From NCBI RefSeq assembly GCF_000022145.1, contig NC_011891.1:2554001-2618000 (forward strand): a stretch of 64,000 nucleotides of DNA. Reading direction: 5' to 3'. A model generated the notes under the pieces. It was not told where the DNA came from and did no database searches. It saw nothing but the letters and a program-made list of their open reading frames with translations. The stretch is from Anaeromyxobacter dehalogenans 2CP-1 (lineage in GTDB: Bacteria; Myxococcota; Myxococcia; Myxococcales; Anaeromyxobacteraceae). Positions 36,029 to 42,028 of this stretch are shown here, piece after piece. Position 1 is the first letter of the stretch; each line of letters begins with the position of its first letter. The position numbers and the translations under genes are program-made.

Positions 36029-39000
36029 TCAGTGGAAGTCCCGGGCGCGCGCGCCCATGGAGGGGGCGAGCGCGAGCGGGGCCACCGAGTCCACCCGCAC
36101 GTTCACCACCTTCCCGCTCCGCTCCACCCGCCCGCGCGCCAGCAGGAACGGCGCCCCGCGGACCACCGGCCGGAAGCGCTCGTACACGTCGGGCATCACC
36201 ACCAGGTTCGCGATCCCGGTCTCGTCCTCCAGGCTCACGAAGACGATGCCGCGGGCCGTCTCCGGCCGCTGCCGGACGATGACCAGCCCCGCCACCTCGA
36301 CCGGCGCGCGATCCGGGAGCCGCCCCAGCTCGCGGGCGGTGCGGATCCGGTCGCCGCCCAGCCCGGGCCGCACCAGCGCCATGGGGTGGCCGCGCACCGA
36401 CAGGCCCGTGGTGGCGAAGTCGGCCGAGACCTCGTCGGCGGCCGAGGCCGCGGGGAGCGCCACCTCGGGCTCCGGCGGCGCCAGGCCCGCGAACAGGTCG
36501 CCGCCGTCGGCCTCCACCGCCAGGCTGCGCCACACCGCGTCCCGCCGATCGGGCGCGAGCGCGCCGAGCGCGCCCGCCTCCGCCAGCCGCACCAGCCAGG
36601 CGCGGGAGAGCCGGGCGCGGCGGACCAGCTCCGCCACCGAGCCGAACGGCCCGGCTGCCCGCGCCTCGAGGATGGCCTCGCCCACCGCGCGCGGGAGGCC
36701 GCGGACGGCGTGCAGCCCCACGCGCAGCACCGCCGTCTCCCCCGGCGCGGCCGGCCGCCCGGGCGCCGCGCCCTCCAGGCTGCTCTCCCAGCCGCTGCAG
36801 CCGACGTCCACCCCGCGCACCTCCACGCCGTGCCGCTTCGCGTCCTCCACCAGCGTGTGCGGCGCGTAGAACCCCATGGGCTGGCTGTTCAGGAGCGCGC
36901 AGGCGAACGCGGCCGGGTGGTAGCGCTTCAGCCAGGCCGAGGCGTAGACCAGCAGCGCGAACGAGGCCGCGTGCGACTCCGGGAAGCCGTACCCGGCGAA
37001 CCCGAGCAGCTGCTTGAAGATCTCCTCCGCGTCCGCGCCGGAGATGCCCCGCTCCGCCATCCCGGCCACGAGGCGCGCCTTCATGGCGGCGAGCTTCTCG
37101 TGCGAGCGGCGGTGCGTCATCACCCGCCGCAGCTCGTCCGCCTCGCCGGGCGTGAACCCCGCCGCGATCACCGCGAGGCGCATGGCCTGCTCCTGGAACA
37201 GCGGGACGCCGAGGGTGCGGGCCAGCACCGGCTCGAGCGGCGCGTACGGGTAGCGGACCTGCTCCTTGCCGTCGCGGCGGCGCAGGTAGGGGTGGATCAT
37301 GCCGCCCTGGATCGGCCCGGGCCGGATGATCGCGACCGAGATGACGAGGTCGTAGAAGTTGCGCGGGCGCAGGCGGGGGGCGAGCGACATCTGCGCCCGC
37401 GACTCGACCTGGAACACGCCGATGGAGTCGGCGCGCCCGAGCATCTCGTACACCTCGGGGTCCTCTGCCGGGATGGTGGCGAGCGCGTCGGGGTGCGGCA
37501 CCGCGGTGGGCGAGGCCGGTGCCGGCCGGTGGCGCGCGAGCAGCGCCAGCGCCCGGGAGAGCGCGGTGAGCATGCCCAGGCCGAGCAGGTCCACCTTGAG
37601 CAGGTCCAGCTCGGAGAGGTCGTCCTTGTCCCACTGGACGATGGTGCGGCCGGGCATGGCGGCGGGCTCGATGGGCACCGTCTCGCAGAGCGGCCGCCGC
37701 GTGATGACGAAGCCGCCCACGTGGATGGAGAGGTGGCGCGGGAAGCCCTGCAGCTCGCGCGCGAGCGCGAGCGTCATCCGCACCCGCTCCGAGTCCGCCG
37801 CGTCGAGGCCGGCCTGGGCGAGGAGCTCGGGCCCCACCTGCCCCAGGTCCTCGTAGGTGCCGATGAGCTTCGCGAGCCGGTCCACCTGGCCGAGCGAGAG
37901 CCCGAGCGCCTTCCCCACGTCGCGGAGCGCCGACTTGCCGCGGTAGGTGATCACCTCGCAGACCATGCCGGCGCGGTCGCGGCCGTACCGCTGGTACACG
38001 TACTGGAGCACCTCCTCGCGCCGCTCGTGCTCGAAGTCCACGTCGATGTCGGGCGGCTCGCCGCGCTCGGCGGAGATGAACCGCTCGAACAGGAGCCCCA
38101 TGCGCACCGGATCGATCGAGGTGATGCCGAGCACGTAGCAAACCGCGGAGTTGGCCGCGCTGCCGCGCCCCTGGCAGAGGATGCCGCGCGAGCGAGCGAA
38201 CCGGACCACGTCCCACACCGTGAGGAAGTAGCTCGCGTACCCGAGCGACTCGACGAGGTCGAGCTCGCGGGCGAGCTGCCGGGCCACGTCCTCCGGCGGC
38301 TCGCCGCCGTAGCGCCAGCGCGCGCCCTCGCGCACCAGCTCGCGCAGCAGCGACATCCCGGCGAGCGCGCCGTCCCGGTCCGTGCCCGCGGCAGCGCCCG
38401 TGCCACCGCCCGCGCCCGCGAGGCCGGGCTCGCCGGGCTCGGAGCTGGCGGGGCCCTCGGGCGCGGAGGCGGCGGGGCCCTCGGGCTCGGGTGCGGCCGG
38501 GCGCTCCGCCGGGAGCGAGGCCCGGAGCGAGAGGCTCGGCGTGGCGGTCCGCGCGCCCTCCCGCGCCGCCTGCGCCGGGCTGGAGGTCGCGACCTCGACG
38601 CCGCCGGCGAGCGCGCCGCGCTCCACCACCACCGGCGGCAGCGGGTGCTCGCCGCGGATCTCCTCCATGCGGAAGCGGCACTGGTCGGCGATGTCGGCCG
38701 CGGCCGCGAGCCCCTCGGGGAAGTCGCTCCACAGCCGCGCCAGCTCCTCGGGACCCTTCAGCGTCCGCTCGGCGTTCGGGAACAGCCGCCGCCCGGCCCG
38801 GTCCACGGTGGTGCCGTGGCGCACGCAGGTGAGCACGTCCTGCAGGACCTGCCGGGCGCGCGCGTGGGTGTGGACGTCGTTCGTCACCGCCACCGGCACC
38901 CCGAGCCGCCGCCCCGCGGACCGGGCGGCGAGCACGCGCGCCTCCTCCCCGGCCACCCGGTGCCGCGTCACCGCGAGCGCCGCCCGGCGGCCGAACGCGT

Positions 39001-39457
39001 CCTTCAGCCGCGCGACCGCGTCGCCGTCGGCGCCCGGGTACAGCGCGAACAGCCCTCGCGCGCCGGCCGCGACCGCCTCGAAGGGCACCGCGACCGCGTC
39101 CCGCTCGCGGCGCTCCGGCGCGCCGGTCCAGCCCTCGCCGCAGTGCGCCCGCGTCACCAGCCGGCACAGCCCCGCGTAGCCCTCGCGATCCTGGGCGAGC
39201 AGCACCAGCCGCGCCGGCCGCCCCGGCGCGAGGCCGGCGACCACCAGCTCCGCGCCCACGATGAGCGGGAGCCCCTGGCGCTTCGCCTCGGCGTGCGCCC
39301 GGACGATGCCGTACAGCCCGTTCACGTCGGCGAGCGCGAGGGCCGACAGCCCGAGCTCGGCCGCGCGCCCCACCAGCTCCTCGGGGTGGCTCGCGCCCTC
39401 CAGGAAGGAGAAGCAGGACTTGCAGCGGAGCTCGGCGTAGCGGGGAGCGTGGGACAT
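36029..39457 (-). CDS. dnaE2: Error-prone DNA polymerase DnaE2 (ImuC)
   Basis: Translesion C-family polymerase of the ImuABC mutasome. The 1142-aa protein has an N-terminal PHP domain (FSFLEGASHPEELVGRAAEL), the polymerase palm with PPDIDVDFEHERREEVLQY (catalytic Asp residues), GRGSAANSAVCYVLGI, VESRAQMSLAPRLRPRNFYD, FQEQAMRLAVIAAGFTPGEA and a C-terminal OB region (VEVAGLVIVRQRPETARGIV). Between PHP and polymerase parts (about residues 295-375) lies a Pro/Ala/Glu/Gly-rich low-complexity stretch. It is 15 nt after imuB and ends the cassette. Confidence 0.95.
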   Translation of the reverse strand: MSHAPRYAELRCKSCFSFLEGASHPEELVGRAAELGLSALALADVNGLYGIVRAHAEAKRQGLPLIVGAELVVAGLAPGRPARLVLLAQDREGYAGLCRLVTRAHCGEGWTGAPERRERDAVAVPFEAVAAGARGLFALYPGADGDAVARLKDAFGRRAALAVTRHRVAGEEARVLAARSAGRRLGVPVAVTNDVHTHARARQVLQDVLTCVRHGTTVDRAGRRLFPNAERTLKGPEELARLWSDFPEGLAAAADIADQCRFRMEEIRGEHPLPPVVVERGALAGGVEVATSSPAQAAREGARTATPSLSLRASLPAERPAAPEPEGPAASAPEGPASSEPGEPGLAGAGGGTGAAAGTDRDGALAGMSLLRELVREGARWRYGGEPPEDVARQLARELDLVESLGYASYFLTVWDVVRFARSRGILCQGRGSAANSAVCYVLGITSIDPVRMGLLFERFISAERGEPPDIDVDFEHERREEVLQYVYQRYGRDRAGMVCEVITYRGKSALRDVGKALGLSLGQVDRLAKLIGTYEDLGQVGPELLAQAGLDAADSERVRMTLALARELQGFPRHLSIHVGGFVITRRPLCETVPIEPAAMPGRTIVQWDKDDLSELDLLKVDLLGLGMLTALSRALALLARHRPAPASPTAVPHPDALATIPAEDPEVYEMLGRADSIGVFQVESRAQMSLAPRLRPRNFYDLVISVAIIRPGPIQGGMIHPYLRRRDGKEQVRYPYAPLEPVLARTLGVPLFQEQAMRLAVIAAGFTPGEADELRRVMTHRRSHEKLAAMKARLVAGMAERGISGADAEEIFKQLLGFAGYGFPESHAASFALLVYASAWLKRYHPAAFACALLNSQPMGFYAPHTLVEDAKRHGVEVRGVDVGCSGWESSLEGAAPGRPAAPGETAVLRVGLHAVRGLPRAVGEAILEARAAGPFGSVAELVRRARLSRAWLVRLAEAGALGALAPDRRDAVWRSLAVEADGGDLFAGLAPPEPEVALPAASAADEVSADFATTGLSVRGHPMALVRPGLGGDRIRTARELGRLPDRAPVEVAGLVIVRQRPETARGIVFVSLEDETGIANLVVMPDVYERFRPVVRGAPFLLARGRVERSGKVVNVRVDSVAPLALAPSMGARARDFH

Positions 39458-39472: not shown

Positions 39473-41092
39473 TCAGTCGAAGAACCCGTGCAGCCACAGC
39501 CGCCCGTCGGCGCCGTCGCGGTACACCCAGCAGTCGCCGAGCCCGTCCAGCCGGACGCGGTAGTAGTCGCGGTCGAACCCGCCGGCCCACCACTCGCCGC
39601 GGAGCCGCTCCGGGCCCTCCAGCGCGAGCACCGCGCGGTCGCGCCCACCCACCCGCAGCGCGGTGAGCCGGCCGCCCTCGCCCTCGGCGACCACCTGCTC
39701 CGGCGCGGCGAGCAGCCGGGTGGGCCGGAACGCGGCCTCGCCGTCCTGCCCAGCCCCGCGCGCCTCCGCGCCTGCGGACGGCGCCGCCCGCCCCGGGCCC
39801 GCCGGAGGGCGAGCGGGCGCGCGACCGGGGCCGCTCGGCGCCCTGGGCCGGAACGGCACCGGCCGGTAGGCGCCCTCCGGGCGGTAGCGCGCCACCGGCT
39901 CGGCCGCGAACAGCGCGCCGTCCCCGAGCCGCACCGCGAGGCGCGCCAGCACGCCCTCCAGCGCGGCGACCGCCTCCGGCCGGTCGCCGAACGCGAGCTG
40001 CTCGGCGGCCACCGGCGCCACCTCGGCGGCCACGAGCCGCAGCGCCGTCACGGCGCCGGGCAGCCGGAGCGCGAACAGGTGCTCCTTCACCGGGACGAGC
40101 CAGCGCGCCGCAGACGCGCTGGGCTGCGAGAGCGGCACCTGGATCCGCTCTTCGCCGCGCGGGTCGAGCGCGAGCACGAGGCGCAGGCGGGTCGCCCCGA
40201 GCCCACGCCCGGCCAGCCGCGCCGCCACCCGATCCGCGAGCCGCTTCAGCCCGAACAGCAGCGGCTCGGCGCTCTCCGCCGGCGCCTCCAGCTCCAGCGA
40301 CTCCTGGGGGAGCGTCTCCGGCACGTGCGGCACGAGCGGCGACACGTCCTCGCCGCGGGCCAGCCGCGCCGCGCGCACGCCCTCCGGCCCGAACCGGTGC
40401 GCGAGCGTGCCCTCCGGCAGCCGCGCCAGCGCGCCCGCGTCCCCCACCCCCACCGCCGCCAGCCGGCCGGCGACCGCCGGCGCCAGCCCGAGCGCCGCGA
40501 GCGGGAGGCCCGCCAGCGCGGCCGCCGCCGCGGCGCCCCCGGGCGCGACCCCGTGGACCGCGCCGTCGAAGCGCCCGTGCCGCGCCAGGGCCGTCGCCGG
40601 CCCTCGCCCGGTCGCCACCACGGCGCGCGCGGCGTAGCCCATGTCCACGGCGGCCTGCACCGCCCGGCGCGCCAGCCGCTCCTCGCCCGGCCCGAACGCC
40701 GCCGACGCTGCGCCCGTGCCGGGGCCGGCCGCGAGCAGGCGCGCGGCGCCCGCATCCAGCAGCAGCGCGTCGGGCGCCGCCACCTCGACGGCGGGGGCGA
40801 TCCCGAGCAGGACCTCGGCGAGCGCGCGCAGCGCGGCGAGGTCCGCGGCGGCATCCCGCACCACCGTCTCGAGCCGTCCGCAGGCGGCGAGCGCCTCGGC
40901 CGCGGACTGGCCGGGACGCACGCCGGCGGCGCGTGCGGCCGGGGTACAGCACACCACCCGCCCTTCCTCGAGGACTGCGACGAGCGCCGCGAGCCCGCGG
41001 GCGGCGCGCTCGCGCCCGCGCAGGACGCGCTGGAGCGGGAGATCGGGGAGCTGCAGCGCCACCACCCGCGGGGCGACCGGCTCACGCGGCAT
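39473..41092 (-). CDS. imuB: ImuB, inactive Y-family polymerase subunit
   Basis: Adaptor of the ImuA-ImuB-DnaE2 translesion complex, related to DinB polymerases but catalytically dead. From ATG 41092 the 539-aa protein begins RVVALQLPDLPLQRVL where active Y-family enzymes carry their first catalytic Asp residues, then RPGQSAAEALAACGRLETVV, a helix-hairpin region (LPLAALGLAPAVAGRLAAVG), and a little-finger-like domain. After a Pro/Arg/Gly linker the C-terminus ends in RGEWWAGGFDRDYYRVRLDG and WLHGFFD, typical of actinobacterial and myxobacterial ImuB. The gene overlaps imuA by 11 nt. Confidence 0.9.
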   Translation of the reverse strand: MPREPVAPRVVALQLPDLPLQRVLRGRERAARGLAALVAVLEEGRVVCCTPAARAAGVRPGQSAAEALAACGRLETVVRDAAADLAALRALAEVLLGIAPAVEVAAPDALLLDAGAARLLAAGPGTGAASAAFGPGEERLARRAVQAAVDMGYAARAVVATGRGPATALARHGRFDGAVHGVAPGGAAAAAALAGLPLAALGLAPAVAGRLAAVGVGDAGALARLPEGTLAHRFGPEGVRAARLARGEDVSPLVPHVPETLPQESLELEAPAESAEPLLFGLKRLADRVAARLAGRGLGATRLRLVLALDPRGEERIQVPLSQPSASAARWLVPVKEHLFALRLPGAVTALRLVAAEVAPVAAEQLAFGDRPEAVAALEGVLARLAVRLGDGALFAAEPVARYRPEGAYRPVPFRPRAPSGPGRAPARPPAGPGRAAPSAGAEARGAGQDGEAAFRPTRLLAAPEQVVAEGEGGRLTALRVGGRDRAVLALEGPERLRGEWWAGGFDRDYYRVRLDGLGDCWVYRDGADGRLWLHGFFD

Positions 41093-41768: not shown

Positions 41769-41789
41769 GGCCGGCGGCTCCTGCCCGCA

Positions 41790-41818
41790 ACTTAGCTGCT
41801 CGCGCGTTCAGGTAGCAA
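41790..41818 (-). promoter_or_regulatory. imuA promoter
   Basis: Minus strand TTGCTA (41813-41818), 17-nt spacer, CTAAGT (41790-41795), giving a start about 15 nt before the imuA ATG. Confidence 0.65.
41796..41812. promoter_or_regulatory. LexA-type SOS box in imuA promoter
   Basis: CTGCTCGCGCGTTCAGG matches 16 of 17 positions of the LexA motif I recall for Myxococcus xanthus (CTRHAMRYBYGTTCAGS). It exactly fills the spacer between the -35 and -10 boxes, a position where a bound repressor would exclude RNA polymerase. Confidence 0.65.
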
Positions 41819-42028
41819 GACGGTCTGACACGGGGCCGCGGGCGGCCTGCGGCGCGGGCGAGCGAGGGCCTCCACCCTGCGCAACTGCCCGTGCGCACGG
41901 CACTTCCTGCGCCTTTCTCCCCGGGGCGGAACCCTTCCGCACAGGTGCCCCGGCACTACCCTATCGAAAGCCAACACGAGAGCCACGGCAGACGCCGGGC
42001 TCCGAACCAGAGCAGAGAGGGAGATCCA

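Follow-up and report, generated by a model that had tools for sequence, protein, structure and literature searches.

The window, a 64,000-nucleotide stretch of a 5,029,329-base single-contig Anaeromyxobacter genome, carries imuA, imuB and dnaE2 in cassette gene order, all on the minus strand, from which an operon is predicted (Table 1). Read on the minus strand, the promoter upstream of imuA is TGTCAGACCGTC-TTGCTA-CCTGAACGCGCGAGCAG-CTAAGT-TGCGGG. A first-pass annotation of this DNA described a LexA-type box that exactly fills the 17 nt between a −35 hexamer, TTGCTA, and a −10 hexamer, CTAAGT, and proposed that LexA bound there makes the operon inducible by DNA damage. The layout is real, with the three parts following one another from 41818 down to 41790, upstream of imuA-imuB-dnaE2. 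The box does not stand alone in this promoter; a second conserved element, directly upstream, had been missed.

Table 1. Genes and promoter features at the imuA-imuB-dnaE2 locus (positions in the window)
Feature	Position	Strand	Remarks
PafBC-type (RecA-NDp-like) element P1, TGTCAG-ACCGTCTTGC-TA	41813..41830	-	Last six bases, TTGCTA, are the P2 −35 hexamer
−35 hexamer of LexA-type promoter P2, TTGCTA	41813..41818	-	TTG invariant in 19 aligned family promoters
LexA-type box, 17-mer	41796-41812	-	16-mer core CTGAACGCGCGAGCAG at 41811-41796
Predicted P1 transcription start	41802	-	28 nt after the T of TGTCAG; a prediction
−10 hexamer of P2, TAAGTT	41789..41794	-	CTAAGT of the first-pass annotation is 41790-41795
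imuA, 228 aa	41082..41768	-	NCBIfam ImuA, 76.5 bits, below the cut-off of 150
imuB, 539 aa	39473..41092	-	ATG at 41092, overlapping imuA at its end; named from its position and from weak, sub-cut-off DNA polymerase IV-like matches
dnaE2, error-prone DNA polymerase	36029..39457	-	NF004225, 1288.8 bits (cut-off 939)

Conservation was assessed in a class sample of 147 genomes. Twenty-four of these belong to the family of Anaeromyxobacter, and all but G007 and G012 yielded an imuA locus (22 of 24). The remaining 123 genomes contributed 90 imuA stretches, of which 85 were counted; four were dropped for doubtful orthology (L145, L146, L147 and L148) and a fifth as a second copy in G109 (L150). Among those of doubtful orthology, L145 has GTCGG...TA with an 11/12 box, L146 has TGTCAG-N10-TA, and L147 and L148 have neither. 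Two genomes (G066 and G088) were left out because their contigs held too little upstream DNA, and nearly all other genomes left out had matches of RecA level alone. The second copy in G109, on a 147-kb contig (C2), is an ImuA-like gene without a TGTCRG/LexA promoter.

A conserved element upstream of the LexA-type box

A promoter of the form TTG-17/18-TA, called P2 here, is found at imuA in 19 of the 22 family genomes. TANNNT occurs in 18 of these 19, and in 9 of the 10 with a spacer of 18 nt. The −10 hexamer that had been annotated is present in the window; moved downstream by one base, to TAAGTT and a spacer of 18 nt, it fits better than as CTAAGT with a spacer of 17 nt. In an information profile of the 19 aligned family promoters, weighted by genus and excluding L036-L038 because of an insertion, the mean information is 0.52 bits upstream, 1.64 bits in TGTCAGAC, 1.79 bits in TTGNTA and 0.54 bits downstream. 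The conserved block begins at 41830, which is 12 nt further upstream than had been annotated.

The upstream part of this block holds the PafBC-type element P1, and TGTCRG-N10-TA is found at this single site in the window when both strands are searched. The M. tuberculosis PafBC motif has been described as TGTCGG/TGTCAG-10xN-TA-3xN-T (PMC8151990), and a mycobacterial variant as tTGTCRgtg-8-TannnT (PMC5656591). The imuA element agrees with the mycobacterial motif save for the final T, since it reads TACCTG, with G in that place, and the final T is also missing at several other sites of the host genome. Because of the missing T, the imuA element is graded as one of PafBC type that would work like the motif, and not as a member of it. 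The two bases that follow TGTCAG are AC, not tg as in tTGTCRgtg.

Within the family, TGTC[AG]G-N10/11-TA is found at imuA in 17 of 22 genomes under the strict pattern and in 20 of 22 if the first base is left free; L042 is without TGTCAG, and L043 has CA instead of TA. Across the other Myxococcia, the module stands upstream of imuA in 66 of 85 stretches (strict) or 81 of 85 (first base free), and is absent in 4 of 85. Shuffled versions of the 85 stretches averaged 0.33 (maximum 2) and 1.57 (maximum 5), respectively, and their reverse strands gave 0 and 1.

Conservation and strength of the LexA box

The 17-mer between the hexamers agrees with the motif CTRHAMRYBYGTTCAGS at 16 of 17 positions, as first annotated, with a single mismatch at position 5 (A to T), and the motif is the one published for M. 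xanthus (PMC9705874, section 15). At no more than one mismatch, the imuA 17-mer is the sole match in the 64-kb window; at up to three mismatches, the window has 8 matches, against 15.95 expected from shuffles. A genome-wide scan with the same motif, at up to two mismatches, returned 67 matches against 40 in a backwards-read control, and matches with one mismatch number six, at five places. Because these counts lie near those of the control, the match to the box is not significant in itself, and its position and conservation are; for the same reason, motif counting was rejected as proof of a LexA site.

The expectation that the box would be conserved upstream of imuA is borne out by comparison. 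CTGAAC-N7-CAG is present in all 22 family genomes that have the imuA locus (24 searched), and the box, weak by match alone, is strong because of this conservation. In the 19 aligned promoters, every base of CTGAAC carries 2.0 bits and the right half-site a mean of 1.75 bits; the middle four bases are unconstrained (0.56 bits), which is what a site for a dimer should show. Farther afield, a LexA-like box (at least 10/12) abuts the TGTCRG module in 58 of the 85 imuA stretches of other Myxococcia.

The strength of the box bears on a reading in which it is a low-affinity relic, with the PafBC-type element alone working in the family, as it may in M. xanthus. The M. xanthus pafBC and recN boxes share the departure seen at imuA (CTGCT for CTRHA), and in our reading each of them departs from the motif in one further place; in gel shifts, M. 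xanthus LexA bound the pafBC box weakly and did not bind the recN box (PMC9705874). A left half of this kind, together with erosion of the imuA box in two lineages elsewhere, is consistent with a relic. A relic would drift, however, and the invariance of CTGAAC and the high information of the right half-site across 19 promoters argue against this reading, which we regard as highly improbable.

LexA is encoded in the host genome (P0001; TIGR00498, 227 bits, cut-off 111), and half-sites, CTGAAC/GTTCAG, occur at the host lexA and recA1 genes, those at lexA having been found by reading. The strict M. xanthus motif is absent from the host lexA promoter within three mismatches, where there are half-sites alone, and the 230 bases read before host pafB contain no GTTCAG. 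The arrangement TTGNNN-[LexA half-site, 16-18 nt spacer]-TANNNN is found at lexA in 14 of 21 family promoters, including that of the window's genome, and at recA in 16 of 22, with recA1 of the window's genome among the six misses. Outside the family, the −35/−10 layout occurs in just 4 of 63 imuA stretches that have a LexA-like box, and this layout around the box is a feature of the family of Anaeromyxobacter. Elsewhere in the host genome, LexA-like boxes begin 29 nt upstream of a radical SAM gene of the PA0069 family (L004, G000:C1:3111533) and 35-41 nt upstream of ruvC (L021, G000:C1:1136078).

The TGTCRG element at other genes and in other lineages

A scan of the host genome with TGTCRGANNNNNNTGNNA gave 9 sites against 0 in a reversed control, a ratio that is flattered because the pattern was refined after the hits of an earlier scan (10 against 2 in the control) had been seen. 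These sites precede imuA, radA (TIGR00416), genes for a DNA_pol_B_exo2 protein and a DUF2188 protein, and others, including genes for two long proteins that have no Pfam match. In five of the nine TGTCRGA sites, the T is followed at 28-30 nt by a potential start codon, and two of these five (L087 and L090) also have an earlier candidate start codon; to judge from the sequence, this spacing is what would be expected if such a promoter gave leaderless transcripts. At recA1, TGTCRG-N10-TA is present in 21 of 22 family promoters, or 22 if GA is allowed, against a shuffle mean of 0.02 (for L261, 93 bases upstream of recA were used). Most of these elements have GTTCAG half-sites beside them, and the module stands clear of these LexA half-sites. 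Thus, the PafBC-type element is common to repair genes of the host, namely radA, recA1, imuA and an exonuclease-like gene.

Two further composites occur in the host genome. In one, noted by eye on the minus strand at G000:C1:1846641-1846657 and just upstream (L030), TGTCAG-N10-TA overlaps a LexA-like box, CTGTACATCCGTTCCG, that begins 39 nt upstream of a gene resembling SbcD/Mre11 (sub-cut-off matches). The other, TGTCAGACCATCCTGATATTGCGTTCAGG (L084/L011, G000:C1:552617-552645, minus strand), precedes a 63-aa open frame that has no Pfam match.

The host encodes candidates for a protein that reads the element. L093 is PafB-like (6sj9_A PafBC, 1.2e-25; 7p5x_AY, 1.8e-16), and the adjoining gene, L094, is PafC-like (6sj9_A, 2.1e-40; 7p5x_AX PafC, 3.1e-26). 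Two more PafBC-like WYL proteins, encoded in tandem as L096 and L095 (G000:C1, around 4544041-4545239), also match a solved PafBC chain (6sj9_A, 1.4e-20 and 2e-17), which leaves room for a reading in which the upstream element is real and is read by this pair, or by an unrelated regulator, instead of L093-L094. The AC that follows TGTCAG, where the mycobacterial variant has tg (PMC5656591), and the missing final T at imuA are consistent with such a reader. Nevertheless, L093-L094 match the solved PafBC chains better than L096/L095, both TGTCRG and its N10 spacing conform to the PafBC motif (PMC8151990), and the sites stand before repair genes such as radA and recA. Taken together, these data make a different reader quite unlikely. 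A side observation concerns the second recA of the host (L207, G000:C1:4175331-4176320), whose alignment runs across a single in-frame TAG; no stop is seen in the other rows of this kind that were listed.

Additional evidence came from lineages in which the two elements come apart. Within the family, L036-L038 have an insertion of about 10 nt between TGTCAG-TTGCTA and the LexA box, which has its own TTG, so the tight overlap is not required everywhere. In two groups from another family of the order, the module is kept as TGTCAG-N11-TA with the LexA box at imuA eroded: in the genus g19, all 12 genomes examined (of 16) show this state, and in g33, 9 of 27 do. One of these genomes, G117, has TGTCAG-N11-TA at imuA, and its LexA positions agree at 7/12 at most. 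This genome holds the published M. xanthus pafBC gel-shift oligo without a mismatch, upstream of a PafB-like frame, and four sister genomes match the oligo with 1-3 mismatches; G117 is therefore taken for M. xanthus.

These data bear on the first interpretation of the promoter, in which the operon would answer to LexA alone, bound at the 41796-41812 box of an ordinary −35/−10 promoter, and TGTCAG would be an extension of the core promoter. The box is universal among the family imuA loci, TTG-17/18-TA is present in most of them, and the same layout recurs at lexA and recA, all of which this reading would explain. However, TGTCAG-N10/11-TA outlives the box (g19 and g33), the module also stands before radA and other genes and is separate from the LexA half-sites at recA, and the −35/−10 layout is rare among box-bearing imuA stretches outside the family, all of which speaks against this reading. 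LexA control of imuA, as first proposed, is well supported by comparison, given the conserved box, the encoded LexA and a layout that recurs at most family lexA and recA promoters; control by LexA alone is incomplete as an account, since a PafBC-type element overlaps the −35 hexamer and persists where the box has been lost, and we consider it unlikely.

In M. xanthus, the regulation of ImuB has been taken to imply further regulators, independent of LexA and of DdiA and so far unidentified (PMC12288472), and a PafBC-type element without a LexA box at G117 imuA fits such an induction. DdiA itself was thought an unlikely reader of TGTCAG because ImuB induction is reported to be DdiA-independent (PMC12288472). 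The same source states that ImuB is lower, not higher, in a delta-lexA strain, though the PafBC homologues are LexA-regulated; neither element explains this lower level, which counts against a composite of PafBC-type activation and LexA repression. Also counting against it, a scan of G117 with TGTCRGACN{7,9}TA was only weakly enriched (43 sites against 33 in the control). The stricter TGTCRGAC-N5-TG-N-TA gave 7 sites, 4 with an open frame by the filter used, and recX is the sole recognized repair gene at these sites; surroundings were read for these 7 of the 43 sites and for imuA. The recX site (L216), TGTCGGAC-N8-TA, lies 29-32 nt before the gene, and RecX is raised by mitomycin in M. xanthus (PMC12288472, table). 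Two other G117 sites, L220 and L245, lie in near-identical stretches with TGTCAGACTYGGCTGGTA, hinting at a repeated gene family that carries the element. PafBC-binding sequences have been reported at 24 of 51 M. xanthus genes (PMC9705874), and the pafBC genes of that study are taken to be MXAN_1359/1360.

A proposed composite promoter and known systems

The two elements are present and jointly conserved at imuA, the host encodes LexA and PafB- and PafC-like proteins, and TGTCRG stands before other repair genes. The imuA-imuB-dnaE2 promoter is probably a composite, in which PafBC-type activation is combined with repression by LexA. We infer that LexA and PafBC both bind here, that both promoters fire and that the resulting logic is AND-like. 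Upon DNA damage, single-stranded DNA would activate a PafB/PafC pair at P1. In mycobacteria, single-stranded DNA is bound by PafBC, which steers the housekeeping polymerase towards promoters that have a −26 motif (PMC11804915), and by analogy the pair would help housekeeping RNA polymerase to initiate near 41802, some 28 nt downstream and beneath the LexA box. For P2 (TTGCTA-18-TAAGTT), the predicted start is near 41783. The LexA operator at 41796-41812 would cover the −10 region and start of P1 and fill the spacer of P2, such that bound LexA may block both starts until RecA-driven cleavage of LexA frees the promoter.

A broader proposal, to which we give about even odds, is that a PafBC-type, LexA-independent damage regulon exists throughout Myxococcia, with a mutasome promoter that ancestrally fused a PafBC-type promoter to a LexA operator. 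Two lineages, that of M. xanthus and one other genus, would have lost LexA from imuA, and in M. xanthus LexA would have moved to pafBC. If so, this hand-over to pafBC would supply the ImuB regulator that PMC12288472 leaves unnamed. What has made stress-induced mutagenesis in myxobacteria a puzzle is that few M. xanthus genes are under direct LexA control (PMC9705874), and that the regulation of ImuB points to regulators so far unnamed (PMC12288472). A PafBC-type element at imuA, at recA of the family and at host radA would name a candidate for such a regulator, and would extend to a further phylum a damage pathway known from Actinobacteria. It would also show an activator that senses single-stranded DNA and a repressor that senses RecA meeting on about 40 bases. 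No description of a PafBC-type and LexA composite at myxobacterial imuA was found in the literature searched, mostly open-access main texts.

Each half of the proposed arrangement has parallels in known systems. The imuA-imuB-dnaE2 operons of Caulobacter are controlled by LexA. The promoter described here resembles them as that of a putatively SOS-controlled mutasome operon, and differs in that a PafBC-type element abuts the LexA box. The mycobacterial imuA'-imuB/dnaE2 genes are reported to respond to SOS as well as to PafBC (Adefisayo et al. 2021, per PMC10421592), a likeness in that mutasome genes are joined to LexA/RecA and PafBC, which at the myxobacterial locus is read from sequence elements. 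The difference is that the mycobacterial cassette is split, whereas here the operon is contiguous, with both elements in one promoter that is widely conserved in the class. Mycobacterial recA has a LexA-regulated promoter and a second damage-inducible promoter (PMC8151990, PMC8223512), and recA1 of the Anaeromyxobacter family likewise has LexA half-sites and TGTCRG-N10-TA, although it belongs to another phylum and the final T of TANNNT is often missing. The RecA-NDp promoter type has been described as reaching other Actinobacteria (PMC8223512). The LexA box is also close to the M. xanthus SOS box CTRHAMRYBYGTTCAGS at lexA and recA2 (PMC9705874), with which it shares the GTTCAG half-site and a length of 16-17 nt; in contrast, G117 has no such box left at imuA, and M. 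xanthus LexA binds the pafBC box weakly.
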